Origin: Oscillospiraceae bacterium
GTDB lineage: Bacteria; Bacillota; Clostridia; Oscillospirales; Oscillospiraceae
Assembly (NCBI GenBank): GCA_017456645.1
Contig: JAFTIZ010000034.1
Span: 1-46,648, forward strand
Direction: 5' to 3'
DNA length: 46,648 nucleotides
The notes beneath the pieces are model-generated. The model saw only the letters and a program-made list of their open reading frames with translations. It was not told the origin of the DNA and ran no database searches. The translations under genes and the position numbers were made by a program. Each line of letters starts with the position of its first letter. Positions within the stretch are counted from its first letter, which is position 1. Shown here one piece after another: positions 304 through 26,004 of this stretch.

Positions 304-3138
304 ATGAGTAATTTTAAGAAGTTCTTTTCGTTGCTGCTGGTCGTTGTCATGGTGCTGTCCATGTTCGCCGGCTGTAATGACTCCGGTAGCCAGGGAGGCA
401 CTGAGCCCAGTGAGAACACCTCCGGCGAGACCGGCACCTATAGTGTTACTGTCAAGTCTGCCGGTGGCATGAAGATGGAAGGTGTTACTGTTTACATTTT
501 CCGTGATGAAGCCAAGACTGATATGGTCGATTACGGCGAGACTGATAAGAACGGCAAGGCATCCTTCGATCTGGCGAAGGGTGGCACCTATTACATCGGT
601 CTGGATGGCCTGCCCAAGGGCTATGAGGTGAAGGATACCTATGGCTTCACCAGCAATTCCGCTCAGATTACGGTCAAGTCCTCTGTGATCACGGACGAGA
701 CGCTGTCCTCCGTTTCTTCTCTGAAGCTGGGCGATGTCATGTATGACTTTGAGGTTACCACCCCTGCCGGCGAGAAGTTCAAGCTGTCTGAGGAGCTGAA
801 GCAGAAGGACATGGTCCTGATCAACTTCTGGTATACCACTTGCACTTGGTGTATCAAGGAGTTCCCCTACATGGAGGAAGCTTACCAAATGTATAAGGAC
901 GACGTTGGTATCATCGCTGTGGATTATCTGGATGACAGCAACGATGCTGTTGCGGCTTTCCAGAGCACCTACGGTCTGACCTTCCCTATGGCAACCTGCC
1001 CGTCCAACTGGTTCAGCATTTTTGGCACTCAGGGTGCGCCTACTTCTATTATCGTTGACCGTTACGGTGTGATCTGCCACATCGAGGAGGGTGCTCTGAC
1101 CAGCCTGCGTCCTTTCACCAGCATTTTCGAGCACTTCACCGGTGATGATTACGAGCAGAAGGTTCTGACCAGTCTGGATGATATCGTTACCAATGTCAAG
1201 CCTACCTACGATATGCCCAGCTCCGACGAGATCGGTGCTGTGATCAATAACGGCGATGTTCAGGTTTCCTACCGTGGCGAAGAGAAGGATGAGTATGCAT
1301 GGCCCTTCATTATCACCGAGAAGAATGGCGTATCCTGCATCAAGTCCTCCAACTCTTTGATCGAGGCTTCCTATTCCATCCTGTACGCCGATGTTACCCT
1401 GAAGGCCGGTGAAGCCATTGGCTTTGATTATCTGATCTCTTCTGAGCGCGGCGCGGATGTGCTTCATGTTATTGTTGATGACGAGCCCATCTACACCATT
1501 TCCGGCGTTTCTGATGTGGAGGAGTGGAAGTCCGCATATCCCTGGGTCGCCGACAAGGACGGAACTTATGAAGTGGCACTTTGCTACATTAAGGACGATT
1601 CCACCGATGAGGGCGAAGATGCTGCATACATTAAGAATATGCGCGTCTGCAGTGCTTCTGAGATCGATGTGGATACTTATTTGCCTCGTCAGGCTGCCAC
1701 TAGTGAGGACGGTTTTGAGTATCAGTATGTGGATGTGTTCTACAACTCCAAGGATGGATACTATCACGTGGGTTCCGTAAACGGTCCTCTGCTGCTGGCC
1801 AATATGAACGCCGGCTACACCGAGTTTAATGACAACAAGACTCTGTGGAACATCGTATATGACGATGCGCTCATGCTCGATGGTGAGTTGCTCTATGATA
1901 AGATGGTCAGCTACTTCTCGTATGCCTCCAACTCTTCTCTGATCGGCTATTGCACCGTCAATAAGGAACTGGCTGTTTACCTGAAGGCGATTGCCGATCT
2001 GGCTGGATTCAGCGACGACGAGAACGAGTGGCTGAAGATGTGTAAGTACTACGAGGCTTACGGTAAGAACGTCAAGCAGCTGCAGGATCCTATCAAGGGT
2101 CTGGCTCCGTTCTCCGCTTATGAGGCTAAGCTAGGCAAGAATATTTCTTCCAACAGCTTCTACTATGATACTGCTATCATCCCCAGAGGCAAGCTGGCTA
2201 AGTTCGTTCCCACCAAGTCCGGTGTTTACCGCATCACCTCCAGATCTGAGTCCGATCATGGTGTTGATGGCTGGATCTTTGACGGCAATCGTAACGAACT
2301 GCTGGTCTATGAGATGGACGAGCGCCTGTACAATGACAGCAACAACGTTTCTATGGTCTTCTACATGAAGGCTGGAGAGGCCTACTACATCGACATTGCT
2401 TTCTGGGATGTTTATGAGGTTGGCTATATCTACTACGATATTGAGTATGTTGCTCCTACTCTGCAGCACTTCCGTCTGGCTTCTCCCGGCTACTTCACCT
2501 ATGACAGCAATGCCACCGGTGATGCCATGTACCACCTGATTGCCGGCGGCATCGATGTGGTTTTGGGTTCTGACGGCTATTACTATGAGGACCTGGGCAA
2601 CGGCAAGCGCGGCAGTAAGCTGTATGCTGACTTCACCGGTGTTACCAGTTTGTTCTCCAACCCCATTTCCACCGTTAATTCCTATGATGAAAATGGCAAT
2701 CTTATCCGTGATGACCAGGGTAATATCGTTAAGATCAAGGGTATGATCGACATGGGCGGCTTCGACTTCAGCAAGACTGAGGAGGATCTGTATATCCTTG
2801 GTGTGATGGCTAAGCATAACAATGACATTGAAGCTACCAAGGAATACCTGAAGAACACCTGGGGCGAAGAATATGACGCTAACGCCAAGCAGTATCAGAT
2901 CGAGGACGTATTTGAGGGTAAGTATCACGGCGGCGGCGAGGATCTGACCGCTGAGATCAGCAAGTATTTGTCTAAGATGTACAGCGGCTCTGCCAAGGAG
3001 CGCGTTGGCTGCGTTGAGGTGGATGTCAAGCTGGCTGAGATTCTGCAGAAGCTGATGGATAAGTACACCTTCTCCGGTGTTGATCATTCCTGGGTTAAGC
3101 TGTGCTACTACTATGACTACCTGGGCCCTGAGGCTTGA
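304..3138 (+). CDS. Large lipoprotein with transthyretin-like domain and TlpA/ResA-type thioredoxin domain
   Basis: The start at 304 is chosen because AGGAGGA sits 5 bases upstream; a GTG at 277 lacks such a site. The 944-residue product has a lipoprotein signal peptide ending in MFAG-C24, then a Ser/Gly/Thr-rich linker. Residues about 44-115 form a transthyretin-like (Cna-B/carboxypeptidase-regulatory-like) domain. Residues about 140-285 form a thioredoxin fold with C180-T-W-C183 and a cis-proline motif GAPT. The rest is not a family I recognise: a jelly-roll-like stretch, a beta-rich stretch, and a unit around 477-587 that recurs around 751-941 (KMCKYYEAYG versus KLCYYYDYLG). It probably acts on disulfides or cofactors on the outer membrane face. 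The next lipoprotein starts 11 bases later and shares the first two domains. Thioredoxin assignment is firm; the substrate is unknown. Confidence 0.85.
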   Translation: MSNFKKFFSLLLVVVMVLSMFAGCNDSGSQGGTEPSENTSGETGTYSVTVKSAGGMKMEGVTVYIFRDEAKTDMVDYGETDKNGKASFDLAKGGTYYIGLDGLPKGYEVKDTYGFTSNSAQITVKSSVITDETLSSVSSLKLGDVMYDFEVTTPAGEKFKLSEELKQKDMVLINFWYTTCTWCIKEFPYMEEAYQMYKDDVGIIAVDYLDDSNDAVAAFQSTYGLTFPMATCPSNWFSIFGTQGAPTSIIVDRYGVICHIEEGALTSLRPFTSIFEHFTGDDYEQKVLTSLDDIVTNVKPTYDMPSSDEIGAVINNGDVQVSYRGEEKDEYAWPFIITEKNGVSCIKSSNSLIEASYSILYADVTLKAGEAIGFDYLISSERGADVLHVIVDDEPIYTISGVSDVEEWKSAYPWVADKDGTYEVALCYIKDDSTDEGEDAAYIKNMRVCSASEIDVDTYLPRQAATSEDGFEYQYVDVFYNSKDGYYHVGSVNGPLLLANMNAGYTEFNDNKTLWNIVYDDALMLDGELLYDKMVSYFSYASNSSLIGYCTVNKELAVYLKAIADLAGFSDDENEWLKMCKYYEAYGKNVKQLQDPIKGLAPFSAYEAKLGKNISSNSFYYDTAIIPRGKLAKFVPTKSGVYRITSRSESDHGVDGWIFDGNRNELLVYEMDERLYNDSNNVSMVFYMKAGEAYYIDIAFWDVYEVGYIYYDIEYVAPTLQHFRLASPGYFTYDSNATGDAMYHLIAGGIDVVLGSDGYYYEDLGNGKRGSKLYADFTGVTSLFSNPISTVNSYDENGNLIRDDQGNIVKIKGMIDMGGFDFSKTEEDLYILGVMAKHNNDIEATKEYLKNTWGEEYDANAKQYQIEDVFEGKYHGGGEDLTAEISKYLSKMYSGSAKERVGCVEVDVKLAEILQKLMDKYTFSGVDHSWVKLCYYYDYLGPEA

Positions 3139-3149
3139 GGCGGGGCTAT

Positions 3150-4028
3150 ATGAAAAAGAGCCTGTTTTTACGGTTTGTTGCAGTGGTCATAACTCTGGTT
3201 ATGACCACCGCAATGACCGCTTGCAATCACAATGATCCTGCGCAAACGCAGGATCCTGATGTTACCTATACGGTCACAGTGGTCAACCGGGGCGATACAC
3301 CCATTGCGAAATGCTCCATTGAAATCTATTCGGATGCTTCTCTCGAGAATCAGATCTATAAGGGTATTGCGGATGCTCAAGGTAAGATCACCTTTACTGC
3401 AAAGCCCTCTACAGAATATGTGGCTGTGCTTTCGAAGCTGCCTGCCGGCTATCACGTGGCAGAGCATTATCTGTTAAGAGGGCAGAGCACTACCATTGTA
3501 CTGTCTGCCGCTGCTTTAACAGAAACTGATATGGATACGGTCAAGTATTCTCTGGGTGATGTGGTCATGGATTTTTCGGTAACCACTCCTGATGGGGAAG
3601 AAGTAACATTGTCCGGACTCCTGCAGGAAAAGAAGGCGGTCGTACTGAACTTTTGGTTCCTGAACTGCGATCCGTGTAAGATGGAGTTTCCGTACATTCA
3701 GCAGGGATATGAGCAGTTTAGTGATGATATCGCGGTGCTTGCTCTGAACCCCTATGACGGTACTGCTGAAGATGTAGCTAATTTTCAAAATACGAACGGT
3801 TATACGTTTACCATGGCAAAATGCGATAGCCGCTGGCAGAAAATGATGGACATTCAAGCATATCCGACTACAGTGATCATTGATCGCTTCGGCAATATCT
3901 GTCTGATCCACAGAGGTATGCTGAAGGATACCCAATCTTTTGTGGATATGGTAAGCTATTTTGTTCGTGATGATTACGAACAGCAATTTTTCAAAAGCGC
4001 CGGTAGAATTCCGGTGTCTGATAAGTGA
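3150..4028 (+). CDS. Lipoprotein with transthyretin-like domain and TlpA/ResA-type thioredoxin domain
   Basis: A 292-residue lipoprotein. ATG at 3150 follows GAGGCGGGG. The signal peptide ends in AMTA-C25. A transthyretin-like domain spans about 40-115 (YTVTVVNRGDTPIAKC). The thioredoxin-like domain at about 130-275 has C173-D-P-C176, an FWFLNC strand before it, and YPTT as the cis-proline loop. Cx-Pro-C is the typical TlpA/ResA active site, unlike CTWC in the gene before. It is essentially the N-terminal third of that neighbour, so the two look like paralogues made by duplication. The 11-base gap implies co-transcription. Expected role: membrane-anchored thiol-disulfide oxidoreductase outside the cell. 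Its partner is not identifiable from sequence. Confidence 0.85.
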   Translation: MKKSLFLRFVAVVITLVMTTAMTACNHNDPAQTQDPDVTYTVTVVNRGDTPIAKCSIEIYSDASLENQIYKGIADAQGKITFTAKPSTEYVAVLSKLPAGYHVAEHYLLRGQSTTIVLSAAALTETDMDTVKYSLGDVVMDFSVTTPDGEEVTLSGLLQEKKAVVLNFWFLNCDPCKMEFPYIQQGYEQFSDDIAVLALNPYDGTAEDVANFQNTNGYTFTMAKCDSRWQKMMDIQAYPTTVIIDRFGNICLIHRGMLKDTQSFVDMVSYFVRDDYEQQFFKSAGRIPVSDK

Positions 4029-4735: not shown

Positions 4736-7700
4736 ATGAAGAAGAAATCCCTTAACAATGTAATTCGTGCATCTTGTATCTGCCTGCTCGTGGTTGCGCT
4801 GGTGATCGGTATCTTTGCTGTGCCCAACGGTGAGGTCTCCGGTTACAACGCTTCTTACATCGAGTTGATGGATAATGCTCCGAAGCTGAACCTTAAGGAC
4901 TATCTGGATAGTTCGGTTATGTTTGAGCTTCCCAGCACCGTCAAGGATGATGATCAGATCTCCGTTATCATCACCGTTGACGTTGCTAACCTGATGGATG
5001 CATATGAAGCCGGTGACAAGACCATGAGCTTCAAGGACTATGCTCTTTACAGCGAAGAGGCTGCCGAGATCGACGAGCAGATCGCTGCCGAGCGGGCAAA
5101 GGTCCTGGCTGCGCTGGATGATCAGAAGATTGCTTACGCCACCGGTGATTGCTATAATACGCTGCTCAGCGGTTTTGAGATCTCTATTAAGGCGGCTGAT
5201 TTTAAGGCTACCTGCAAGTCCTTGACCAAGGGGCAGGGCATCATCGTCAGCGAGGTCTACGAAAAGTGCGAGACTCAGCTGGTTGAGAATGAGGTTAATG
5301 TGTTTAGCACCGGTATTTTCAACAGCTCCGGCTGTGGCTATGACGGCAGCGGCATGGTCGTTGCGGTTTTGGATACCGGTCTGGACTCCAACCACACCGC
5401 ATTCTCTACCAACAACTTCACCTCCAATAAGCTGGGCCTGACCTACAAGGACGTGGCTGCGCTGGTTGGCAAGACCGTCGCTAACAAGATGTACGGCGGC
5501 CTGACCGTGGACGATGTTTACATCAATGACAAGGTTCCTTTCGGCTACGATTATGCTGATAACGATCCTGACGTTTACTCCACCCACAATAACCACGGTA
5601 CTCACGTTTCCGGCGTTATTGTCGGTAAGGACGATGTCATCACCGGTGTTGCACCCAATGCGCAGCTGGTGTCCATGAAGATCTTCTCCGATGTTTATGA
5701 TTCCGCTATCAGCAGCTGGATATTGTCCGCTCTGGAGGACTGCGTCATTCTGGGCGTTGATGTGGTCAATATGTCTCTGGGTACTGCCTGCGGCTTTGCC
5801 CGTGAGTCTGATGAGGAGATCATGAACGGCGTTTACGACAAGCTGCGTAATGCCGGTATCTCTGTCATTGTTGCCGCTTCCAACAGCTATTCTTCCGCCT
5901 TCGGCTCTGAGAAGAACGGTAACCTGCCTCTGACCTCCAACCCCGATACGGGTACGGTCGGTTCTCCCGGTACTTACAAGGGCGTTATGTCCGTTGCCTC
6001 CATCAACGGTGAGGAGACCCCTTACCTGAAGTTCGGTGATAAGATCATCTACTTCGACGAGGCAAACAATGGCGCAGCCAAGGAGCTTGACTTTGTTAAG
6101 AACCTGCTGGGCGATGAGACCTCCAAGGATTTGGAATTTGTGGTGATCCCCGGTGTCGGACGTAGTGCGGACTATACCGGTATGGATGTTAAGGGAAAGA
6201 TCGCGCTGGTGCGCCGTGGCTCTAACACCTTCGAGGAAAAGGCTATGATTGCCGAGGCGCAGGGTGCGGCCGGTATCATCATCTATAATAATGTTTCCGG
6301 TGATATCAAGATGAACGTCGGTGACGCAAAGCTGGCTGTCTGTTCCATCTCTCAGGACGATGGTAAGATGCTGGCTGCTGCCGGCGGTGGCAAGCTGACC
6401 ATCAGTGTGGATCAGACTTCCGGTCCTTTCATCTCCGATTTCTCTTCCTGGGGTCCTACTCCCAGCCTGAATATTAAGCCTGAGATTACTGCTCACGGCG
6501 GTAACATTCTGTCCTCCGTCACAGGTGGCGGCTATGACCGTCTGTCCGGTACCTCCATGGCTTGTCCCAACCTGGCCGGTGTGGTTATCCTGCTGCGTCA
6601 GTATGTTGTTGAGAATTTCCCCAGCATCGCAAATGACAATGTTAAGGTCAATGAGATGGTTAATAAACTGATGATGTCCACCGCGGATATCGCGCTGAAC
6701 ACCAACGGTCTGCCTTACGCTGTGCGTAAGCAGGGTGCGGGTCTTGCGAACCTGACCAGTTGCCTGAACACTAAGGCCTACCTGACCACCTTCGATAAGA
6801 ATGGCGACGCCATGGATAAGCCCAAGCTGGAGCTGGGCGACGATCCCAAGAAGACCGGCGTTTATGAAATGACTTTCGCCATTACCAACTTCGGCTCTTC
6901 CACTCTGGCTTATGACCTGGGCGGTTACGTCCTGACCGAGGGCGTCAGCGACACTAAGACCAATGCCGGTGAGACCACTGTTACCGAAGAGGCTTATGCT
7001 CTGGACGGCGCCATCGAGATCGTTTCCGTTTCCGGCGGCAGCGTCAATGGCAAGAACATCTCCGTTGAGGGCGGAAAGGAAGCCAAGGTCACCGTTAAGA
7101 TCACTCTGACCGACGCCGACAAGGCCTATCTGGATACGTCTTTCAAGAACGGTATGTATGTCGAGGGTTTCCTGACTCTGGAGGCTACCTCCGGCACTGA
7201 CGTGAACATGGGCGTACCTTATCTGGCTTTCTACGGCGATTGGACCAAGGCTCCCATGATGGACCTGGACTACTATGCCACCAATGCCGATGAGCTGGAT
7301 GACGGCATTAACCCCGAGGATAAGACCATGGCTGACGCCTACGCCACTCGTCCTATCGGCGGCGTGTCTGAGGACTACGTCAGCTATCTGGGTTCCTACT
7401 ACTTTATCCAGAACCCTGATGATATCGTGATCTCCGCTAACAGAGATTATATTGCCCTTTCCAATCAGGAGGGCACGATCCACTCTCTGCGCTTTGTGTG
7501 GGCCGGTCTGCTGCGTAATGCCGCAAAGATCGTGATCACTGTTACCGACGACACCACTGGCGAGGTCATCTTCGAGACGGTGGATGTTGATGTGCGTAAG
7601 TCCTACGGCGATGGCGGCTCCATCTATCCTGCTAACGTGGAGATTGAGTTCGATACCATGGATTACAACCTGTCCAACAACACCGAGTATACGGTTAAGC

Positions 7701-10700
7701 TGGTAGGTTACATGGACTACGGCGACGGCGGTCTGGAGACCAATGCCAGCAACGTCTTTGAGTTCCCGCTGGTGGTTGACTTCGAGGCTCCCACCGTTAC
7801 CGATGTTCAGTACTACTATGAATACGACAAGACCATGAAGAAGAACCGTCTGTATGCCAAGGTCGGCATCTACGACAATCACTTCACCATGGCTTCTCAG
7901 GTAGGTTACATTACCACGGATGTGGATTCCGAGGGTAACAGCTCCGCCGCTATGAAGGTATTCAGCAAGTACATGACTCCTGTGTATTCTCAGCGCAACA
8001 GCACTACTTACGTGACTTACGAGCTGACCGATTACATCTACACCATTAAGGAAGAGGCGCTGAATGCCAACTCCTTTGTTCTGACTGTTTACGACTACGC
8101 TTTGAACATGGCCACCTACGAGATCGGTCTGCCCGACGACTACGTGGACTTCTACTTCGATGCGCTGGAAGAGGGTCTGACCCTGAGCCCCAACGAAGTT
8201 TTCTCGCTGGAGCCTCTGGTTCATCCCAACACCGAGTGGGCTGAGCTGTTGGAGTTTACTTCATCTAAGGCCAGCGTTGTTCGTGTTGTCAACAACAAGC
8301 TGGTTGCTACCGGTTCCGGTATGGCCACTGTTAAGGTTCGTGACCCCGCCACCAACAAGAGCTTGACCTTCAAGGTCACGGTCTTGAAGGAAGGGGATGA
8401 GGGCTACCGCCGCTACGATAAGCCTGTTGCCGATGTGTTTAATCTGACCGGCTACACCACCATGAAGGCCTATTACATGGTTGATAGTAATGATAAGCTG
8501 CTGGGCGATACCGGCGATGTCCGTTTCTTCGACGGAAAGTACTCTCTGTCCATGTATCCGTCCGAATCCGTGGCGCTGAGCTACGATCTGGACGCATTCT
8601 TCCCCAACGATACCAAGGTCGTCTTTGAGACCAGTAACGAAAACATCGTCCAGATCACGCAGGGCGGTGTGGTTACGGCCAAGAAGGAAGGCTTTGCTTC
8701 TGTTACCATCCGTGTTTTGATGGATGATAAGTCCACTTACTATTCCGAGACGGTCACCATTGAGGTCAAGGATCCCTACGTTTACAACGGCGGCATCCTG
8801 AACCACTACTATGGTAACGGCGGTCTGGTCAATATCCCTGCTGATCTGTCCCTGACCGAGATCGGTTCCTTCGCGTTCTCTAACTTTGATTATGTTCAGA
8901 AGACTCCGGAAGAACTGGCCATAGATGATCAGTCCACCAGCAAGCAGTGGTACATTGGTGAAAACACCATTACCAAGGTTGTCATTCCCGAGGGCGTTAA
9001 GAAGATCAGCGCCTACGCCTTTGCGCAACTGACCGCTCTGGAAGAGATCGTCCTGCCGTCCACTCTGGAATCCATTGAGTACGGTGCGTTCTACGGCTGT
9101 AGCAAGCTGCAGAAGATCACCTTCAGCGGTGAGAACAATCTGTTCATCATCAACCAGAATGCATTTGAAAACTGTGACCTGCAGGGCACCATCGACCTGA
9201 CCGGCGCTTGCGTCATTTCTGACTATGCCTTCGCCGGCAACCAGGATCTGAAGGGCATTGTCACTGACGAGAGCCTGCTGTCCATCGGCCAGTACGCCTT
9301 CGCCGGCTGTAAGAGCCTGAAGGATGTGACCATTACTTCCGATAAGGTCAAGTACGGCGCATATGCCTTTACCGATTGCGAGGCGCTTGAGAGCTTCTAT
9401 GTCAACGCCTCCGTTCTGCCTGAGGGTATGTTCTACGAGTGCGAGAACCTATCTAAGGTCACCATCGGCCCCGACGTTAACGATATCGGCCCCTTCGCAT
9501 TCCGTACCACCAAGGTAGACACCTTCGAGATCAAGTCCGGCAATCAGGCCTTCAAGGTCCAGACCGGTAACGTGATTGTTTCCGCTGACGGCAAGACCCT
9601 GATCGCTGTTGCTCCCACCTTCCGCGGTGAGTTCAATGCTGAGTCTGTTGGTTCTGCTATTTCCGTCATCGGCAAGGGCGCGTTCTCTCACAACACTAAG
9701 ATCACCGCTGTTTCTCTGCCCAATGTTACTGTGGTAGGGGAGTACGGCTTCGGTTCTTCCACCGGCCTGACCGATGTTGAGCTGGGCGAGCTGACGCAGA
9801 TCGATGCCTACGGCTTCTTTGAAACGGCTATCACCAAGCTGCCTGACATGGCCGCTGATGTTACCCTCGGCAAGTACGCATTCTCTCACACCAATCTGGT
9901 CAGCGTCATCATCCCCGATGGCATGACTCTGCCTGAGGGCGTGTTCAGCGAGTGCCTGAAACTGAAGACCGTTATCATCGGCAACAATGTCAAGATTGGC
10001 AATTATGCCTTCTCCGTGGATAAGGATAACAGCTTCTCTATCGAGCACTATGACGAAGACGGTGAGAGATACTTCTACTACAAGTTCAACTCTGCACTGA
10101 CCAAGCTGATCATCGGTGACAATGCCGTAATTGGCAAGAATGCCTTCGCCTTTGCTACCGCCCTGGAGTCTGTTGCTCTGGGTGAGAATGCGATCATCGG
10201 CGACAGCGCCTTCTATAACAACAGCAGCCTGAAGGATATTGATCTATCCAAGGTTCAGTCCATCGGCAAGTATGCTTTCTCCGGCGACGAGTATAACGTT
10301 TGTCTGGACGACAGCATGAGCGTTCCCGCGGTTTCCAAGGATGGCTATTACATTACTCAGGCTCATGCCGCTAAGCTGAAGGTCGTGGATCTGAGCAGTG
10401 CCACCTCCGTTGGCGAGTACGCATTCGCTCTGTGCAGCGAACTGAAGGAAGTTGTTCTGGGTGAGAATATCACCGAGATCCCCACCTACGCCTTTGCAAG
10501 TTGTGAGGATCTTGAGAAGATCGATCTGAGCAAGGTCGTCACCATTGGCGACTACGCTTTCCAGGAGACCGAGAAGCTCCAGTCCGTGGACCTGTCCAGC
10601 GCTCAGGACATCGGCAAGTACGCTTTTGTTAACGGCGCTGTGCTGTCCAATGTGACTCTGAACTCCAATGGCTCCAACATTGCTGAGGGTGCCTTCTGCT

Positions 10701-11986
10701 ACTGCGCTAAGCTGGCCAATGTTGAGAACCTGCAGTTCGCTCAGGTCATCGACAGTTATGCTTTTGCCTATACCGCTCTGACGGAAGTTGATCTGACCGC
10801 AGCGATTACTCTGGGTGACTTCGTGTTCCTGAAGGAAGAGTTCGCTCCCTTCGCTGTCAAGCTGGGCAACTCCCTGACCAGTATTGGCGACAACCCCTTC
10901 GCTATGTGCCAGATCAAGCCCTTCAGCATCGAGCAGGTCGTGAACTTCAACGGCGTGGACTATGTGACTCAGGTCTACACCTACGACATTACCGACACCG
11001 TTAAGATCATCGACGGCTCTCTGTACAGCAAGGTACCCAATGGCTACGAGCTGATCGTTTATGCCGGCACCGAGCATTCCAATGTTCACATTGCTGATGG
11101 TACGATCCGCATCACCGGCTATGCATTCGCTTGCAGCGATGTGCAGATGGTGACTCTGCCTTATACGGTTAATGCCATCGGCCACAAGGCCTTCTACGGC
11201 TGTAAGGATCTGAAGTGTGTTGTATTCACCAGCTACGATGCTCCCATCCTGGAGGAGGAGTTCGATAAGTCTTACTACGAGTCCTTCGAGCATATCCCCG
11301 GCACCGGTAACTACGGTGAATACACCGATTACGATGGCACTGAGGTGACCATCACCGGTATGGCTCTGATTCCCTACTACATGTGGAATGCCAACAGCGG
11401 TCAGTACTACAATGTGTTCTACGGCGCCAACTTCGTTGATTACATTGGCTACGTGGATAATAAGCTGACCATGGTCAGACCCGTCAACGGCCAGCACTAT
11501 GATACCTATATCCTGAACCAGTACTTCAACCTGACCATCAACGGCGCCGCCGGTGCGGATGACACCACTCTGGCTGCTATTGCTGCCATCAATGCGATCC
11601 CTGAGCGCGTTACCTACGAACACAAGGCCATCGTTGAGGCTGCCCGTGCCGCCTACAGCAAGATCGCCACCAAGGAACAACAGGCTCTGGTCACCAATTA
11701 TGACGTGCTGATCTCTGCCGAGCAGCGTATTACTGCTCTGGCACCCACTCCTGAGGAGCCCCCCGTTGTCGATGAGGTGATCAAGACCGGTGCCCCCTGG
11801 CTGGCCTGGGTCGTGATTGCTCTGGGCATCGCCGGTGTTGCGGTTGCCGTTTACTTCGATCGTAAGGGCGGCAAGAAGAAGGATACTCAGCAGACTCCTG
11901 CCGCTGAGCAGGCTCCCGAAACTGTGATCCCCGAGACTCCTGTTGAGGAAGTGCCCGTCAACGAAGAGAACGTTTCCGAGGAATAA
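4736..11986 (+). CDS. Giant membrane-anchored subtilisin-like (S8) protease with PA, Big2-like and BspA-type LRR domains
   Basis: A 2416-residue surface protease. An N-terminal hydrophobic segment (about 12-28) serves for export and a propeptide-like region follows. The S8 catalytic residues are visible: D213 (VLDTGLD), H287 (HGTHVSG) and S607 (GTSMACP). The long gap between His and Ser holds a protease-associated domain at about 440-560, as in C5a peptidase/lactocepin-type envelope proteinases. Fn3-like beta domains follow, then two Big2-like domains (about 1158-1218 and 1268-1345). Residues about 1367-2160 hold more than twenty BspA-type leucine-rich repeats with the IGxYAF pattern. A helical stretch, a transmembrane helix at about 2354-2373, a GGKKK stop-transfer and an acidic tail end the protein. 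No LPXTG is present. It lies just upstream of a peptide importer, which suggests protein breakdown for nutrition. The substrate and LRR ligand are unknown. Confidence 0.92.
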   Translation: MKKKSLNNVIRASCICLLVVALVIGIFAVPNGEVSGYNASYIELMDNAPKLNLKDYLDSSVMFELPSTVKDDDQISVIITVDVANLMDAYEAGDKTMSFKDYALYSEEAAEIDEQIAAERAKVLAALDDQKIAYATGDCYNTLLSGFEISIKAADFKATCKSLTKGQGIIVSEVYEKCETQLVENEVNVFSTGIFNSSGCGYDGSGMVVAVLDTGLDSNHTAFSTNNFTSNKLGLTYKDVAALVGKTVANKMYGGLTVDDVYINDKVPFGYDYADNDPDVYSTHNNHGTHVSGVIVGKDDVITGVAPNAQLVSMKIFSDVYDSAISSWILSALEDCVILGVDVVNMSLGTACGFARESDEEIMNGVYDKLRNAGISVIVAASNSYSSAFGSEKNGNLPLTSNPDTGTVGSPGTYKGVMSVASINGEETPYLKFGDKIIYFDEANNGAAKELDFVKNLLGDETSKDLEFVVIPGVGRSADYTGMDVKGKIALVRRGSNTFEEKAMIAEAQGAAGIIIYNNVSGDIKMNVGDAKLAVCSISQDDGKMLAAAGGGKLTISVDQTSGPFISDFSSWGPTPSLNIKPEITAHGGNILSSVTGGGYDRLSGTSMACPNLAGVVILLRQYVVENFPSIANDNVKVNEMVNKLMMSTADIALNTNGLPYAVRKQGAGLANLTSCLNTKAYLTTFDKNGDAMDKPKLELGDDPKKTGVYEMTFAITNFGSSTLAYDLGGYVLTEGVSDTKTNAGETTVTEEAYALDGAIEIVSVSGGSVNGKNISVEGGKEAKVTVKITLTDADKAYLDTSFKNGMYVEGFLTLEATSGTDVNMGVPYLAFYGDWTKAPMMDLDYYATNADELDDGINPEDKTMADAYATRPIGGVSEDYVSYLGSYYFIQNPDDIVISANRDYIALSNQEGTIHSLRFVWAGLLRNAAKIVITVTDDTTGEVIFETVDVDVRKSYGDGGSIYPANVEIEFDTMDYNLSNNTEYTVKLVGYMDYGDGGLETNASNVFEFPLVVDFEAPTVTDVQYYYEYDKTMKKNRLYAKVGIYDNHFTMASQVGYITTDVDSEGNSSAAMKVFSKYMTPVYSQRNSTTYVTYELTDYIYTIKEEALNANSFVLTVYDYALNMATYEIGLPDDYVDFYFDALEEGLTLSPNEVFSLEPLVHPNTEWAELLEFTSSKASVVRVVNNKLVATGSGMATVKVRDPATNKSLTFKVTVLKEGDEGYRRYDKPVADVFNLTGYTTMKAYYMVDSNDKLLGDTGDVRFFDGKYSLSMYPSESVALSYDLDAFFPNDTKVVFETSNENIVQITQGGVVTAKKEGFASVTIRVLMDDKSTYYSETVTIEVKDPYVYNGGILNHYYGNGGLVNIPADLSLTEIGSFAFSNFDYVQKTPEELAIDDQSTSKQWYIGENTITKVVIPEGVKKISAYAFAQLTALEEIVLPSTLESIEYGAFYGCSKLQKITFSGENNLFIINQNAFENCDLQGTIDLTGACVISDYAFAGNQDLKGIVTDESLLSIGQYAFAGCKSLKDVTITSDKVKYGAYAFTDCEALESFYVNASVLPEGMFYECENLSKVTIGPDVNDIGPFAFRTTKVDTFEIKSGNQAFKVQTGNVIVSADGKTLIAVAPTFRGEFNAESVGSAISVIGKGAFSHNTKITAVSLPNVTVVGEYGFGSSTGLTDVELGELTQIDAYGFFETAITKLPDMAADVTLGKYAFSHTNLVSVIIPDGMTLPEGVFSECLKLKTVIIGNNVKIGNYAFSVDKDNSFSIEHYDEDGERYFYYKFNSALTKLIIGDNAVIGKNAFAFATALESVALGENAIIGDSAFYNNSSLKDIDLSKVQSIGKYAFSGDEYNVCLDDSMSVPAVSKDGYYITQAHAAKLKVVDLSSATSVGEYAFALCSELKEVVLGENITEIPTYAFASCEDLEKIDLSKVVTIGDYAFQETEKLQSVDLSSAQDIGKYAFVNGAVLSNVTLNSNGSNIAEGAFCYCAKLANVENLQFAQVIDSYAFAYTALTEVDLTAAITLGDFVFLKEEFAPFAVKLGNSLTSIGDNPFAMCQIKPFSIEQVVNFNGVDYVTQVYTYDITDTVKIIDGSLYSKVPNGYELIVYAGTEHSNVHIADGTIRITGYAFACSDVQMVTLPYTVNAIGHKAFYGCKDLKCVVFTSYDAPILEEEFDKSYYESFEHIPGTGNYGEYTDYDGTEVTITGMALIPYYMWNANSGQYYNVFYGANFVDYIGYVDNKLTMVRPVNGQHYDTYILNQYFNLTINGAAGADDTTLAAIAAINAIPERVTYEHKAIVEAARAAYSKIATKEQQALVTNYDVLISAEQRITALAPTPEEPPVVDEVIKTGAPWLAWVVIALGIAGVAVAVYFDRKGGKKKDTQQTPAAEQAPETVIPETPVEEVPVNEENVSEE

Positions 11987-20463: not shown

Positions 20464-20709
20464 ATGAGCAAGAAAAAAGAAAAAATCACCTATGTGGACG
20501 ACGGACGCACCATTGCGGATATGTCCGGTGTGGGTGGTGGGTCGCGGTTGAATGACCGCAATCCCTACCGTCCCAGTCCTAAATTCAAGGACGTTTGGAA
20601 AACCTACTGGAGTGCGGTGCGAATGATGTTCGTTCCTATGCTGGTGGTCATCGCCATCATTGGTGTCATCTATCTGCTTGCTTATCTTGCACTTGCGTAT
20701 TTAGCCTAA
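20464..20709 (+). CDS. Small membrane protein at the end of the opp operon, unknown function
   Basis: An 81-residue protein starting 3 bases after oppF. The first half is charged and flexible (SKKKEKITYVDDGRTI); the second half has one transmembrane helix (about 55-78, MLVVIAIIGVIYLLAYLAL). No family is recognised. The tight position at the operon end and the terminator right after it suggest a role linked to the importer, perhaps as an assembly or regulatory subunit; this is inference only. Confidence 0.75.
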   Translation: MSKKKEKITYVDDGRTIADMSGVGGGSRLNDRNPYRPSPKFKDVWKTYWSAVRMMFVPMLVVIAIIGVIYLLAYLALAYLA

Positions 20710-20710
20710 A

Positions 20711-20746
20711 AAATACCGCCTTCCACTTGGAAGGCGGTATTTTTAT
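20711..20746. terminator. Bidirectional terminator between opp operon and minus-strand Fe-S gene
   Basis: A 14-base-pair stem (20711-20724 with 20729-20742), loop ACTT, with T runs on the plus strand and A runs (20708-20713) serving the minus strand. It ends both convergent units. Confidence 0.92.
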
Positions 20747-20751
20747 GCGTT

Positions 20752-22308
20752 TTAGTCTGCCAGAAGTTTGTTGATGACCTCGCTCATTTCCTCGTAGGTG
20801 GTGGAGCCGATCATCTTGTACTGGATGACACCTTCTTCATCAAGAATGATTGTAATGGGCCAGGCGGAAGTGCCGCCAAGGCTCTTGAAGAAGGGATCGT
20901 CTTCACCGTCACGGCAGTGGACGAAGCCTGCATCCGTAGGCAGGTTTTTGTTGATCCAAGTAGGGATATCCTCTCCAAATTCTTCGTAGGAGTGGACCAC
21001 GACGATCTCAACATCGTCGCCGTAATTGGTGTGTAGATCCGGGAATTCGGTCTTCAGCTCATGTACGCAGGCGCTGCAATAGATGTACCAGAAATTTACG
21101 ACGGTGATCTTGCCGCGGCTGTCGCTGGGCTTAATGGTGCCGTCTTCGAAATACAGAGGCATCTCATAGTCGGGACACAGATTGCCGACCTCGCCGCCGG
21201 ACTCCACCGGTGCGGGATCCTTGTGGATTACATTGTAGTAAACCAGAGAACCGGCCAGAACCGCCAGCATGGTAATGGCAACCACCAGTCGGGCGATCTT
21301 GGTTTTCTTGGGCAGGGGAGTGCCGGGGGCATCACAGGGATCTGCGTTGGGCTTTTTGGTTGCGGGTTGGCCGCCGACTTCGTTGGGCGCAAGCAGGATC
21401 TTCGGGCCTTTGTAGGTGATGGCGTTGGTGGGACAGACGTTGACGCATCGACCGCAGCTGATGCATTCGTGATCGCCAACCTTCTTTACGTCCATCAGGC
21501 ATTCGCCGATGCACAGTCCGCAATCCACGCATTTGGACTTATTCAGGTTCATGCCCAGCAGGGAGATCTTATTGAACAGTCCATAGATAGCGCCGAGGGG
21601 GCAGAAGAAGCGGCAGAAGAACCGGTAGATAAAGACCATACCAACGAGGAAAACAACCAGCAGCAGGAATTTCCATGTAAACAGAGGGCCAAGCATGGCC
21701 AGCAGGTTTTCGTTTTTGATATTGGTCAGAAGACCGCCGGCACCCAGCAAAGTGCCTGAGGGGCAGATGTACTTACAGAAGCCGGGCAGCGGCATCTTCC
21801 CGGAATAGAGCAGGGGAATGATGATTACAAATACAACAAGAATGATGTACTTGAGATAGGATGCTATGCGTGTGAAACGGTTTTTCTTAAGCTTCGGTGT
21901 TTTAATTTTGTAGATCAGATCCTGAATCAGACCGAAGGGACACAGGAAACCGCAGATCCAGCGGCCAAACAGGAAGCCGTACAGAAGCAGAATACCGAAA
22001 ATGTAGTAGGGGAGCTTGGTGTTGGTTGCGTTCAAGGCATTCTGCAGTGCGCCCAGGGGACAGGAGCCGGCGGCGGCCGGACAGGAATAGCAGTTCATGC
22101 CGGGGACGCAGGCGAATTTGGCATCACCGATGTAGATGTAGCCGTTGCCGAAGCCTTTCAGGTTAGCGTTGGTAAGCAGGGCGGCATAAAGCTGGATGAT
22201 CCTGCGCTTGGTGGGCTTATGCTCTGCCCACCATTTCCGAAGACCGGTCTTTGGCTTGATGGTTTCGGTGTTATCATTATTCATATTCAGAGTTGCATCT
22301 TTTTTCAT
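20752..22308 (-). CDS. Membrane 4Fe-4S protein (NapH/YccM-like) fused to a TlpA-type thioredoxin domain
   Basis: A 518-residue fusion. The N-terminal part is a polytopic membrane protein with cysteine clusters C67, C73, C76, C83 (CVPGMNCYSCP) and with CGFLCP and CRFFCP motifs. These are typical of NapH/RnfB-like membrane Fe-S electron carriers. Two ferredoxin motifs follow: C260-263-266-270 and C282-285-288-292. After a further helix (about 338-357), residues about 370-518 form a TlpA/ResA-type thioredoxin domain with C411-S-A-C414 and cis-proline loop AWPIT. The arrangement suggests cytosolic electrons pass through Fe-S centres to an outside dithiol. ATG 22308 was chosen as the first ATG after the upstream stop; its ribosome-binding site is weak and M9 is an alternative. 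Topology is inferred. Confidence 0.88.
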   Translation of the reverse strand: MKKDATLNMNNDNTETIKPKTGLRKWWAEHKPTKRRIIQLYAALLTNANLKGFGNGYIYIGDAKFACVPGMNCYSCPAAAGSCPLGALQNALNATNTKLPYYIFGILLLYGFLFGRWICGFLCPFGLIQDLIYKIKTPKLKKNRFTRIASYLKYIILVVFVIIIPLLYSGKMPLPGFCKYICPSGTLLGAGGLLTNIKNENLLAMLGPLFTWKFLLLVVFLVGMVFIYRFFCRFFCPLGAIYGLFNKISLLGMNLNKSKCVDCGLCIGECLMDVKKVGDHECISCGRCVNVCPTNAITYKGPKILLAPNEVGGQPATKKPNADPCDAPGTPLPKKTKIARLVVAITMLAVLAGSLVYYNVIHKDPAPVESGGEVGNLCPDYEMPLYFEDGTIKPSDSRGKITVVNFWYIYCSACVHELKTEFPDLHTNYGDDVEIVVVHSYEEFGEDIPTWINKNLPTDAGFVHCRDGEDDPFFKSLGGTSAWPITIILDEEGVIQYKMIGSTTYEEMSEVINKLLAD

Positions 22309-22310
22309 AA

Positions 22311-23087
22311 TCAACCCAATCCTATACACTCAGTACAAATCTTTACGGCCTTGGTCAGCACGTCCTGCGCACTGCCGTTAAAGATACCAATTACGATAAA
22401 GACCACAGCCACGCCAAAAACAGCCCAGCGAATAATGTTGATGGGCATGGGTTTTTCGTTGACTTCCTCAGCGACGGGCTGAGCTTTGCGCTCGGCAATG
22501 ATCTGCTTGTAGATGGCGGTTTCCCGTTTCAGACTTGCGGATGTCAGCACGGTGCAGAGGTAACACAAAGCCAGACCAATCACAGCCGCGGGCATGACGA
22601 TCAGGGATGCTGCAAGAATCTCAGCTGTGGGATCTACGCCGGAAAAATTGTTCGTATTGAACAGGTAAATGCCGGGGTAGATCAGCAACGCTGCAAAAAG
22701 CACAGCGGTAACAGCAGGGAAGACCTTGCGCAGAGTTTTCTCCTTGCGAATGGAAGCGGCTTCGGTATCCGTCGGGGTGCCGGCTTTGGCGGCCAACTTT
22801 TGCATGGTGATCTGTTCGTCCCGAACAGCTTTGGTCTTTTCTTTATCCGCAGGCAGCAGGATGCTCAAAACCACGCCACCTACCACTGCGCCGGCGCTAA
22901 GCCAGATCAGAACCGCCATTTCGGACAGCTTTGCCCCGATGGACTCCCGTGAATAAGGCCTGGGGCCGCTGTTGTAGATATCCAGACATGACACCATCAT
23001 GGCAACACCAAACGCGATGACGATCAACGCCGTGATGCAGCCGTAAATCAGGTGTATCTTTTTGATTTTATCCTGTGTCATAGGCAT
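22311..23087 (-). CDS. Polytopic membrane protein with C-terminal CTEC motif, partner of the Fe-S/thioredoxin fusion
   Basis: A 258-residue protein with about five predicted membrane helices (about 11-33, 55-78, 121-143, 158-183, 219-237). It ends in KICTECIGLG, a CxxC at C251/C254 close to the terminus. ATG 23087 is used because GGAAGG lies 8 bases upstream. It is the first gene of a two-gene minus-strand unit: its stop is 2 bases from the start of the Fe-S fusion gene, and both appear to share one promoter. No confident family assignment. The proximity and the terminal CxxC suggest a role in the same electron-transfer or thiol path. Confidence 0.78.
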   Translation of the reverse strand: MPMTQDKIKKIHLIYGCITALIVIAFGVAMMVSCLDIYNSGPRPYSRESIGAKLSEMAVLIWLSAGAVVGGVVLSILLPADKEKTKAVRDEQITMQKLAAKAGTPTDTEAASIRKEKTLRKVFPAVTAVLFAALLIYPGIYLFNTNNFSGVDPTAEILAASLIVMPAAVIGLALCYLCTVLTSASLKRETAIYKQIIAERKAQPVAEEVNEKPMPINIIRWAVFGVAVVFIVIGIFNGSAQDVLTKAVKICTECIGLG

Positions 23088-23115: not shown

Positions 23116-23144
23116 ATTATATCACAATGTGCATAATGCGTCAA
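23116..23144 (-). promoter_or_regulatory. Promoter of the minus-strand Fe-S operon
   Basis: On the minus strand, TTGACG (23139-23144) and TATAAT (23116-23121) with a 17-base spacer and an extended TGA before -10. Transcription would start near 23109, about 22 bases before the ATG. It is divergent to the promoter at 23169-23197. Confidence 0.87.
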
Positions 23145-23197: not shown

Positions 23198-23227
23198 ACA
23201 GAAAAAGGAAATTTGGGAGTGGTTAGC

Positions 23228-24079
23228 ATGGCTGAAACCTATTGCGGCATATTTTGTGATTCCTGCGGCCAAAAAGCGCAGCTGGAGTGTCCGGGCTGCC
23301 GTATGGGACCCGGAAGAACCTATGGTGGAGATTGCGATATTTCGAAATGTTGCAGTACGAGAGGCCACCATTCCTGCGAAACTTGCACCACTGCGTCTAC
23401 GTGTATCAAGCTGAAAAACAAGCAGAACGTAGCTCAAGAGCGCTTAAATAGACACAACCAAGATCAGACAGTGCTTCGCCAAAAGGTTCATAACAGTGAG
23501 CTTCTGGGTAATTTCTTAAATATTCTGTTCTGGGTTCAGATCGTATCCATCATTTGCGGAGTTGTGATGAGTGTGCTGGAAAATGATCCGGATTATAGAC
23601 TGATCGGCGAGAGCGTCAGTTGTGCTTTTGCGGTTATCTATGCCTTGATCCTCGTTCGCGTCGGCCCTGTATCTTCTTCTTACCGCATCGCGGGTGTCTG
23701 CCGCTTGATCGGTTGTGCATTGACGTTCGTTTCTGCACTGTCTTATGATGATTTTTGGGTTACCCTTCTTGGATTGATAGCGCTGGTTCCCAGCTATATC
23801 GCCCAGTATCAGGAATTCATGGGCAGTTGTGAGGTAACGGAGCCCTATGATCAGGAGCTGTCGGAGAAATGGAAGAGCCTGTGGTTCTGGGCACTCTTTG
23901 GCTTGGTTGGTATGGGCGTTGGTCTGCTGCTGACTTTGCTTGGAGTTATTCTCGGCGCAATCCTTGTGCTCGTCGCTTCGGCTGTAACCATTGTGGTAGA
24001 GGTGCGTAAGTTGATCATTCTTTATAAAACTGCAAAGCTGTTCCGGGAATACCATGAAATTAATCAATATTCCGTTTAA
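23228..24079 (+). CDS. Membrane protein with Cys-rich N-terminal domain (DUF3795-like)
   Basis: A 283-residue protein. GGGAGTGG precedes ATG 23228. The first 60 residues contain eleven cysteines (positions 6, 10, 13, 21, 24, 36, 41, 42, 50, 53, 59) in the order YCGIFCDSC...CPGC, resembling DUF3795-type domains that probably bind metal. About four to five membrane helices follow (near 98-118, 130-150, 158-200, 222-260). It is divergently transcribed from the Fe-S/thioredoxin pair across about 140 bases holding two clean promoters, so shared regulation is possible. Function unknown; a metal or redox role is inferred from the cysteines. Confidence 0.75.
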   Translation: MAETYCGIFCDSCGQKAQLECPGCRMGPGRTYGGDCDISKCCSTRGHHSCETCTTASTCIKLKNKQNVAQERLNRHNQDQTVLRQKVHNSELLGNFLNILFWVQIVSIICGVVMSVLENDPDYRLIGESVSCAFAVIYALILVRVGPVSSSYRIAGVCRLIGCALTFVSALSYDDFWVTLLGLIALVPSYIAQYQEFMGSCEVTEPYDQELSEKWKSLWFWALFGLVGMGVGLLLTLLGVILGAILVLVASAVTIVVEVRKLIILYKTAKLFREYHEINQYSV

Positions 24080-24670: not shown

Positions 24671-24730
24671 AAATTTGTATTGTTGCGCCCATTTCTGGCG
24701 TTTTAATCAGATGTGTCCGGAGGGATCGGT

Positions 24731-25360
24731 TTGAGCAGAACATATGGCAGATTTGAATCGAATAATCCCGTTCCGCGGCGTAGAAGAAGGGCTCGGAAGC
24801 TGACAGGAAGTCAAGAGTTCGTTCTTGGCATGGATGCCATTTATATTGCCGCTCTGATTTGGACGATCTATATGCTGTTCTTTCGTGTTGTGGTCGTAGT
24901 CGGCCCGTCCATGTACGATACCCTGATCCACGGAGACCGTTTGCTGCTGGTCAGCAGCCTTGTATATCAGCAGCCGCAGCAGGGCGATATCATTGTGTGC
25001 AGCAAGGAGTCCTTTGAAGACGGTACTTGTTTTATAAAACGGGTCATCGCCATAGAAGGGCAGGAAGTGGATATTGACTTTGAGCAGGGTATCGTTTACG
25101 TCGATGGTATAGCTCTGGAGGAGGATTACATTTACACCTCCACCAATCGCTATGAGGGCGTAGATTTTCCCGTAGTCGTTGAGGATGGTCATGTCTTCGT
25201 TATGGGCGACAATCGGGCAAATTCCACTGACAGCCGCAGCCCCTACATTGGGCAGGTGGACACCCGGCAGATCGTTGGCAAGGCTGTATTTTTGATCTCA
25301 CCCGGCGACAATAATGGAACGGAAGAACCCCAGTACAGCCGAGTTGGCTGGATCGATTGA
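24731..25360 (+). CDS. lepB: Signal peptidase I (first of two tandem copies)
   Basis: A 209-residue type I signal peptidase. TTG 24731 is chosen over GTG 24713 because GGAGGG lies 6 bases upstream of it. An Arg-rich cytosolic segment precedes one membrane helix (about 34-57). The catalytic serine is S60 (VGPSMYDTL), the lysine is K103 (CFIKRVIAIEG), and the GDNRANSTDSR box is present. It cleaves signal peptides on the outer membrane face, which fits the many exported proteins in the window. The next gene is a close paralogue. Confidence 0.95.
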   Translation: MSRTYGRFESNNPVPRRRRRARKLTGSQEFVLGMDAIYIAALIWTIYMLFFRVVVVVGPSMYDTLIHGDRLLLVSSLVYQQPQQGDIIVCSKESFEDGTCFIKRVIAIEGQEVDIDFEQGIVYVDGIALEEDYIYTSTNRYEGVDFPVVVEDGHVFVMGDNRANSTDSRSPYIGQVDTRQIVGKAVFLISPGDNNGTEEPQYSRVGWID

Positions 25361-25386
25361 GAAATTAGAATTCGGAGGAAAAGGAA

Positions 25387-26004
25387 TTGGAATTGTTTCG
25401 CAAAAAGAATGTAACGGAAACTGAGGAACCTCAGCAGAAGCGCACCTGGCAGCAGAATCTGGTGCTGGATCTTAAAGAGCTATTCTACGTTTTGGCTGTG
25501 TTTATGATCATTTATATGCTGTTTTTCCGCGTTGTGGTGGTTGTCGGCCCCTCTATGTACAATACGCTTGTTAATGGCGACCGGCTGCTGCTGATCAGCA
25601 GTACCTTCTACACCGAGCCTAAGCAGGGTGACATCATCGTAGCCAGCAAGAAGTCATTCGAAAATGGTGAATGCATTGTTAAGCGCGTGATTGCCACCGA
25701 GGGTCAGACTGTGGATATCGATTTCCAGAAGGGCATCGTCTATGTTGACGGCGTTGCGCTGGAGGAAGACTATACCTATACGGCTACCACCCTTTTTGAG
25801 GGTGTCAGCTTCCCGCTTTATGTGGAAGAGGGTCATGTTTTCGTACTGGGTGACAACCGCAACAGCTCCAAGGATAGCCGAAATCCTCAGATCGGTCTGA
25901 TCGACGAGCGTGAGATTTTGGGCAAGGCGATCTTCCTGATGGCTCCGGGTGTGGATGGCACGACGGAGTATAATTTCTTTGATCGTTTCGGAGTGATCGA
26001 GTGA
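25387..26004 (+). CDS. lepB: Signal peptidase I (second tandem copy)
   Basis: A 205-residue paralogue of the preceding gene. TTG 25387 has GGAGG 8 bases upstream. One membrane helix (about 33-53) is followed by S56 (VGPSMYNTL) and K99 (CIVKRVIATEG), then GDNRNSSKDSR. Both catalytic residues are kept, so both copies should be active. The two share long blocks (VVVVVGPSM, DFxxGIVYVDG, ALEEDY), indicating duplication; they differ mostly at the N-terminus. They may have different substrate preference or expression. The stop overlaps the rbgA ATG (TGATG). Confidence 0.95.
   Translation: MELFRKKNVTETEEPQQKRTWQQNLVLDLKELFYVLAVFMIIYMLFFRVVVVVGPSMYNTLVNGDRLLLISSTFYTEPKQGDIIVASKKSFENGECIVKRVIATEGQTVDIDFQKGIVYVDGVALEEDYTYTATTLFEGVSFPLYVEEGHVFVLGDNRNSSKDSRNPQIGLIDEREILGKAIFLMAPGVDGTTEYNFFDRFGVIE

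Follow-up and report, generated by a model that had tools for sequence, protein, structure and literature searches.

To our knowledge, the known reducing pathways to thiols outside the cell use cysteine pairs of the DsbD/CcdA type. The stretch of DNA analysed here (46,648 nucleotides (nt), hereafter the window; contig JAFTIZ010000034.1 of assembly GCA_017456645.1, from an Oscillospiraceae bacterium) carries a minus-strand gene pair encoding a membrane protein that ends in CTEC (the CTEC protein), followed by a NapH-like iron–sulfur (Fe-S) membrane protein fused to a thioredoxin-like TlpA domain (the fusion). This module is probably a membrane thiol-reductase relay that works on Fe-S clusters and, by inference, a functional counterpart of CcdA/DsbD. 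Computation provides the domain anatomy of the pair, its invariant cysteines, its predicted topology, its near-obligate pairing and its anti-association with CcdA.

CcdA/DsbD (PF02683) has the same job as that proposed for the module, the delivery of cytosolic electrons to thioredoxin-fold proteins outside, and an inverse distribution; it uses intramembrane cysteine pairs, whereas the module would use Fe-S chemistry instead. As judged by profile comparison the two are not homologous, with no PF02683 match in the fusion or the CTEC protein and hhalign probabilities of 1.1 and 0.3 against 20 CcdA proteins. The CTEC protein was considered as a divergent CcdA and rejected, since it has no profile similarity. 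The pneumococcal Etrx2 and Bacillus ResA proteins share the fold of the TlpA domain of the fusion; they are separate anchored proteins served by CcdA, whereas the TlpA domain in the window is fused to its proposed reductase. Ferredoxin-thioredoxin reductase is a soluble enzyme with a redox disulfide beside its [4Fe-4S] cluster; the module would likewise join one-electron Fe-S chemistry to a dithiol, and the outer six-cysteine site described below is compatible with such an arrangement; no match to it was seen in the family searches or among the 60 of 154 PDB matches listed, no direct comparison having been made.

The NapH/MauN (TIGR02163), NosR and RdhC module shares with the fusion two CX3CP motifs and two [4Fe-4S] motifs, position by position in the case of E. 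coli NapH. Compared with NapH, the fusion adds six outer cysteines and a CD1871A-family partner, has a TlpA domain in place of the nitrate reductase parts and is without an FMN-binding domain. The CX3CP motifs of this module are known and their function is left open in the accessible part of PMC5928378. Membrane shuttles in which a NapH-like protein carries flavin domains form an established class, and flavin hybrids of DsbD have been described, according to the portion available of PMC8238504 (eLife 2021); these flavinylated systems carry an FMN-binding domain, and Pfam found none in the fusion, the CTEC protein or the 16 open reading frames (ORFs) of the window that were scanned.

The unfused form of the module is already in a preprint on melanoma immunotherapy (bioRxiv 2025.11.06.686285, PMC12637426), the available text of which calls a 4Fe-4S/TlpA/CxxC operon of gut Clostridia previously uncharacterised, uses it as a predictor of immune side effects and briefly raises the possibility of TlpA acting as a reductant of extracellular or surface targets. 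The same three parts in one operon of gut Clostridia are thus on record; the fusion, the outer-cysteine anatomy, a comparison with CcdA and a mechanism do not appear in that portion of the preprint. No account of a NapH-TlpA fusion, an outer six-cysteine site or an inverse relation to CcdA was found in the literature searched, most subscription papers lying outside it. The '4Fe-4S_BP' protein CD17960 of C. difficile, from the accessible part of PMC13260099, could not be tied to the fusion and was not used.

The fusion (518 amino acids (aa), 20752..22308; features are on the minus strand unless stated otherwise) contains two Fer4_5 stretches, a Fer4 and an AhpC-TSA domain, all over their Pfam cut-offs, and its anatomy is also drawn from alignment and an AlphaFold2 (AF2) model. 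Its two ferredoxin-type [4Fe-4S] motifs (C260–C292, 21433..21531; Fer4/Fer4_7) are in register with those of NapH and are predicted to lie on the cytosolic side. The last transmembrane helix (residues 338–356, 21235..21297, hydropathy 2.3) is followed by an acidic linker and would lead the TlpA/ResA thioredoxin-like domain (20755..21174) outside. This domain matches PF00578 (28 bits, cut-off 26) and has a ResA/Etrx2-like fold by Foldseek (4nmu at 9.9e-10, 4hqz and 2yp6); its score for the ResA subfamily NF002854 is 43.1, below the cut-off of 170. The cysteines of its CSAC active-site motif (residues 411–414, 21067..21078) are Cys in 69/69 and 68/68 of the alignment rows having a residue at those positions. 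The AF2 model has a mean predicted local distance difference test score (pLDDT) of 81, with 88–97 per ten-residue block in the thioredoxin domain. As to NapH, the fusion scores 89.3 for TIGR02163 (cut-off 213.05) and 66.9 for NF007013 (cut-off 234), and by these scores it is a relative of NapH, not a member; all 19 of 19 unfused relatives match NapH models at E ≤ 1e-5, and L066, the one for which a score was listed, lies below both cut-offs. No nap-type domain of a napG/napA neighbourhood was seen among the 16 window ORFs scanned, the operon neighbour being the CTEC protein.

Eighteen cysteines in the Fe-S part of the fusion are invariant in 81/81 proteins, that is, in 80 loci and the window. 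Twelve coincide in the alignment with those of E. coli NapH, where two CX3CP and two ferredoxin motifs are in register: C119 and C123 of the inner CX3CP motif a (21937..21954) align with NapH C105/C109, and C232 and C236 of the inner motif c (21598..21615) with C197/C201. The remaining six have no counterpart in E. coli NapH and are C67, C73, C76 and C83, which form a CX5CX2CX6C motif in outer loop 1 (22060..22110, pLDDT about 52–67), and C178 and C182 of the outer CX3CP motif b (21760..21777). In the 18 lowest-scoring relatives of our genome sample C73, C76, C83 and C182 are kept, and C67 is in the same place in two and one residue further in eight, while in the other eight the regular expression found no match to the motif. 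The initial annotation, which described a NapH-like Fe-S membrane protein with two ferredoxin motifs and a TlpA-type CSAC domain, and beside it a five-helix partner ending in CTEC, is confirmed on these points by Pfam, alignment, Foldseek, five hydrophobic regions and a 2-nt gap; its account of the motifs was incomplete, in that it did not include the three CX3CP motifs, the CX5CX2CX6C motif and the membership of the partner's tail in a named NCBI family.

The distribution of positive charge gives these cysteines a predicted side. Along the fusion, mean lysine plus arginine (K+R) content falls from 6.2 at the N-terminus to 1.5 in the C67–C83 loop, rises to 5.0 in the loop that follows, drops to 2.2 in the C178/C182 loop, reaches 13.3 in the long ferredoxin loop and ends at 1.6 in the linker beyond the last helix. 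Because of this bias the 12 NapH-type cysteines are probably cytosolic and the additional six outside, near the outside TlpA domain. This topology takes the weak segment 37–60 as membrane-crossing, like the first helix of NapH; the other four helices were the only ones picked up by a simple hydropathy scan. For the CTEC protein, K+R values from N- to C-terminus are 3.5, 2.3, 10.7, 0.7, 8.8 and 1.6, and the positive-inside rule thus predicts its N-terminus inside and its CTEC tail outside. The topology check proposed with the initial annotation therefore came out in its favour, charge bias placing both the TlpA domain and the CTEC tail outside.

The CTEC protein (258 aa, 22311..23087) has five hydrophobic regions and ends in KICTECIGLG. 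By its match to NF040920 (44.4 bits, cut-off 32) it bears a CD1871A-family C-terminal domain, comprising the last helix and the CxxC tail (22314..22424), with the CTEC motif at residues 251–254 (22326..22337). Both cysteines are invariant in the 48-row alignment of CTEC proteins, in which the pattern CxECxGxG is kept to the last residue and all 48 of 48 proteins match NF040920 at E ≤ 0.001. Across 77 loci the partner varies from 43 to 366 aa, the tail being constant and the additional helices variable; these helices form no family of their own, and Pfam gave only scattered matches to the 48 CTEC proteins, each in at most four of them. The AF2 model of the CTEC protein has a mean pLDDT of 87 (63–75 in the tail), a fold search against the PDB gave no match at E ≤ 0.001, and no paper on CD1871A was found in the literature searched.

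For the working of the module we infer the cluster content, the path and direction of the electrons, their donor, the role of the CTEC tail and the clients as follows. Reduced ferredoxin in the cytosol, or a similar one-electron donor, would load the two C-terminal [4Fe-4S] clusters, from which electrons would pass to an inner site formed by the two NapH-type CX3CP motifs. They would then cross the membrane to the six-cysteine site on the outer face, which NapH does not have. There the outer site and the CTEC tail of the partner may turn single electrons into a dithiol, by analogy with what ferredoxin-thioredoxin reductase does beside its cluster, and the dithiol would be passed to the TlpA domain at its CxxC motif; this domain could in turn reduce surface disulfides or TlpA lipoproteins. 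Least certain in this scheme are the route of the electrons across the membrane and the function of CTEC. In a possible but rather unlikely variant of the same relay, the CTEC tail is no redox dithiol itself: it would furnish ligands for an outer Fe-S cluster, or else serve in assembly, and electrons would go directly from the six outer cysteines to TlpA. Conservation of the tail to its last residue is what would be expected of a docked ligand, C178 can be lost, and the partner at one locus (L026) has CKAC, so that the middle residues vary; however, CxxC is the usual spacing of a redox dithiol, and with six outer cysteines already present additional ligands are not obviously needed. We therefore keep the dithiol role for the CTEC tail in the relay proposed above.

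The pairing of the two proteins is close to obligate. A contig scan yielded at least 583 relatives from at least 594 pattern matches, of which the best 80 were fetched; because these were ranked by similarity to the fused query they lean towards the fused form, and by length 67 are fused, 12 unfused and one cut by a contig end. A CxxC-tailed gene lies directly upstream in 78/80 by regular expression; of the two negatives, one is the CKAC partner of L026 and the other (L024) begins at a contig edge, so the partner is directly upstream, with order kept, in all 79 of 79 assessable loci. This pairing and the 18 invariant cysteines are far above chance. The unfused form in relatives consists of a TlpA lipoprotein, a CD1871A-tail protein (about 45 aa) and a NapH-like protein (about 280 aa). 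A separate TlpA-like neighbour was found by regular expression in 9/13 loci without a complete fusion, and fusion and neighbourhood therefore tell the same story. A quickly built tree of NapH cores (89 in all: 69 fused, 19 unfused and one left unscored) requires seven switches between the two forms, of which well-supported branches force at least three; the fusion has thus been gained or lost more than once. Among eight long fusions scanned, those of L034 and L050 have two thioredoxin-type stretches, a handing-on arrangement that recalls DsbD.

Four plasmid records match, one of them covering most of the query, and on a plasmid of Peptoclostridium acidaminophilum the parts are unfused with an opposite-strand MFS gene between TlpA and CD1871A. 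In IMG/VR, 19 pattern matches included no relative. The partner tails of a distant branch of the NapH-like family (L120–L137, the 18 distant relatives) are mostly CLSCIG(I/V)(E/Q). Separately, at one locus (L009, genome G008) the 3.1 kb fetched contains a CD1871A gene of 45 aa and lacks a NapH-like gene.

The same pairing is seen at the level of genomes. Among 398 genomes sampled from the phylum, with completeness of at least 95% except for that of the window (G000), 52 have the NapH-like gene (E ≤ 1e-30), 48 have CD1871A and 272 have CcdA/DsbD. All 48 of the 48 CD1871A genomes have a NapH-like gene on the same contig, at ≤150 nt in 41 and ≤1 kb in 47. Three of the four NapH-like genomes without a CD1871A match have a divergent CxxC partner upstream; in the fourth (G400) there is no CxxC partner within the stretch read around the gene.

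With G000 excluded, CcdA is present in 15/51 genomes with the NapH-like gene versus 257/346 without it (odds ratio (OR) 0.14, Fisher p 7.8e-10), two of the 15 coexisting CcdA matches being weak (G149 and G409); for the 33 strongest NapH-like matches the figures are 9/33 versus 263/364 (p 4.3e-7). A PF02683 protein is missing from 125/397 genomes, 36 of which have the NapH-like gene. Stratification over 15 informative families, assigned from a ribosomal-protein listing, gives an OR of 0.33 (one-sided permutation p 0.033), and this shrinkage means that much, though not all, of the raw effect is phylogenetic. A second set, of 32 genomes of family f44 with completeness of 90% or more (15 shared with the first sample), has CcdA in 3/10 carriers of the gene versus 19/22 non-carriers (p 0.003), one of the three matches among carriers scoring below the family cut-off. 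In genus g123, G364 has the gene without CcdA, as does G149 (CcdA sub-threshold only), G491 and G492 show the reverse and G255 has both; in genus g322, G463 and G497 differ likewise, gene versus CcdA.

The statement of the initial annotation that the window has no ccdA or dsbD stands but is weak in itself, since none was found in the window's own genome either and that genome is only 53% complete. The expectation that the pair would be commoner where CcdA is absent holds overall and, more weakly, within families, with coexistence in 15/51. The CcdA/DsbD-like relay in one chain is supported, as a relay, by topology, conservation of the pair and the anti-association, its flow direction and clients being proposed rather than observed; it is not a one-chain device, because the Fe-S protein is no more constant than its CTEC/CD1871A partner and the unfused three-gene form is common. 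The anti-association also bears on direction. Were the flow reversed, TlpA would take electrons from surface thiols and the clusters would carry them inward in an oxidative pathway. Relays can run both ways and a CxxC sequence by itself leaves direction unfixed, but TlpA/ResA relatives are mostly reductases, the anti-association is with a reducing pathway and a low-potential carrier would need uphill regeneration, and we regard reverse flow as very improbable. Outward flow is retained for the relay.

Several observations weigh against a membrane relay that stands in for CcdA. The topology of the pair is derived from charge bias, and the AF2 model of the fusion is poor in just the two outer loops (pLDDT 52–53 at residues 61–80 and 68–72 at 171–210). 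Among the 60 of 154 PDB matches listed there is no solved homologue of the membrane core, these matches falling in or just before the ferredoxin part. C178 is Ser in 9/18 of the distant relatives, and only 2/18 of them have a TlpA-like gene within about 1.5 kb by regular expression. Part of the CcdA anti-association is phylogenetic. CcdA is absent from genera g332 and g336 of f44 with or without the NapH-like gene, and in the window's order it is found in 2/7 CD1871A genomes versus 40/89 others, too small a sample. Since CcdA coexists in 15/51 genomes and 89/346 have neither, neither system is obligatory. The module is also patchy within the window's own genus, where 27/81 genomes (11/23 good ones) have a match, in some cases to the unfused form only.

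Ferredoxin would be the natural donor in such anaerobes. Menaquinone synthesis requires a UbiA-family prenyltransferase, and of the 59 genomes with NapH-like and/or CD1871A matches that were searched, 21 yielded no UbiA-family protein, so that a quinone is not a general requirement of the module. The 21 include all ten genomes of the window's class (nine near-complete; G000 incomplete), and 14/14 control genomes were positive. A quinol-linked, NapH-like dehydrogenase, drawing on membrane menaquinol rather than cytosolic ferredoxin, is improbable, and the predicted cytosolic position of the ferredoxin motifs also speaks against it; it would agree with the presence of UbiA in the other 38 genomes and with the proposal, in the accessible part of PMC5928378, that NapH is a quinol-oxidising protein. 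A ferredoxin-driven relay is thus preferred.

Two TlpA-domain lipoproteins encoded on the plus strand of the window may be clients: one at 304..3138 (Redoxin 2.4e-13, CTWC motif, with a SpaA match below cut-off) and one at 3150..4028 (AhpC-TSA 2.9e-16, CDPC motif), both with a lipobox by eye. Additional TlpA-type proteins were found by regular expression in the fetched flanks of seven fused loci (L029, L046, L047, L048, L063, L068 and L074). At 13/80 loci (L042, L033, L050 and ten others) mostly large lipoproteins lie downstream of the module on the opposite strand, with Ig/SpaA-like starts and some cysteine pairs by eye; this family is a possible further group of clients. The recurrence of lipoproteins as neighbours, together with the lack of maturation genes among the 16 window ORFs scanned, argues against a metal or cytochrome maturation factor of the CcoG/NosR/NapH kind with TlpA as a helper at heme or copper sites. 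Relatives of ResA, TlpA and CcmG do serve cytochrome or copper maturation, and 3/19 unfused relatives weakly match CcoG; even so, such a role seems highly unlikely beside that of a thiol-reductase relay.

The gene pair looks like one complete transcription unit, with a promoter-like site before the first gene and a terminator-like hairpin after the second. The best start of the CTEC gene is ATG 23087, which coincides with the right-hand border given in the initial annotation; that of the fusion gene is ATG 22308, with 2 nt between it and the stop codon of the CTEC gene. The promoter-like site (23116..23144) is a sigma-70-like consensus match, TTGACG-17-TATAAT with an extended −10 (11/12 consensus), and ends 29 nt before ATG 23087; as the region has two such sites versus a shuffle mean of 2.4, not above chance, the case for it is one of score and position. 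The intrinsic terminator-like hairpin (20709..20744, 16-bp stem) lies downstream of the fusion gene and was called on the plus strand, a T tract following on the minus strand as well. Both genes appear constrained, with ratios of non-synonymous to synonymous substitution, against three congeners of 66–83% identity whose synonymous sites are near saturation, of 0.08–0.11 for the fusion and 0.18–0.26 for the CTEC protein, the tail of which is more conserved. Fused modules occur further afield in contigs labelled Fretibacterium (Synergistota; L073) and Anaeroplasma (Mycoplasmatota; L074), both from metagenome-assembled genomes, which could reflect transfer or binning error.

Elsewhere on the plus strand of the window, 23213–24079 is transcribed divergently from the pair and encodes 288 aa, with an N-terminus rich in cysteine and, by eye, several hydrophobic segments (DUF3795 at 20 bits, below the cut-off of 22.6), and 24713–26004 holds two similar tandem ORFs resembling signal peptidase I by eye. 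A 2416-aa surface protein (4736–11986), composed of a subtilase and BspA-type leucine-rich repeats, has the TlpA lipoproteins on one side and an oligopeptide ABC transporter on the other.

Our results raise the prospect, held tentatively and with slightly more doubt than confidence, of a third route by which reducing power reaches outside thiols. Here an Fe-S transmembrane protein with its own outer cluster or dithiol site, and with chemistry like that of ferredoxin-thioredoxin reductase, would together with a CxxC partner replace CcdA/DsbD in many anaerobes of the phylum, having been repeatedly fused to its thioredoxin. If true, such a ferredoxin-driven relay would show how anaerobes without PF02683 can keep their surface thiols reduced and would give the CD1871A family a function. 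It would also be an example of a device into which the CX3CP motifs of NapH-like proteins can be built, and would offer a mechanism for the operon put forward as predicting the side effects of immunotherapy.

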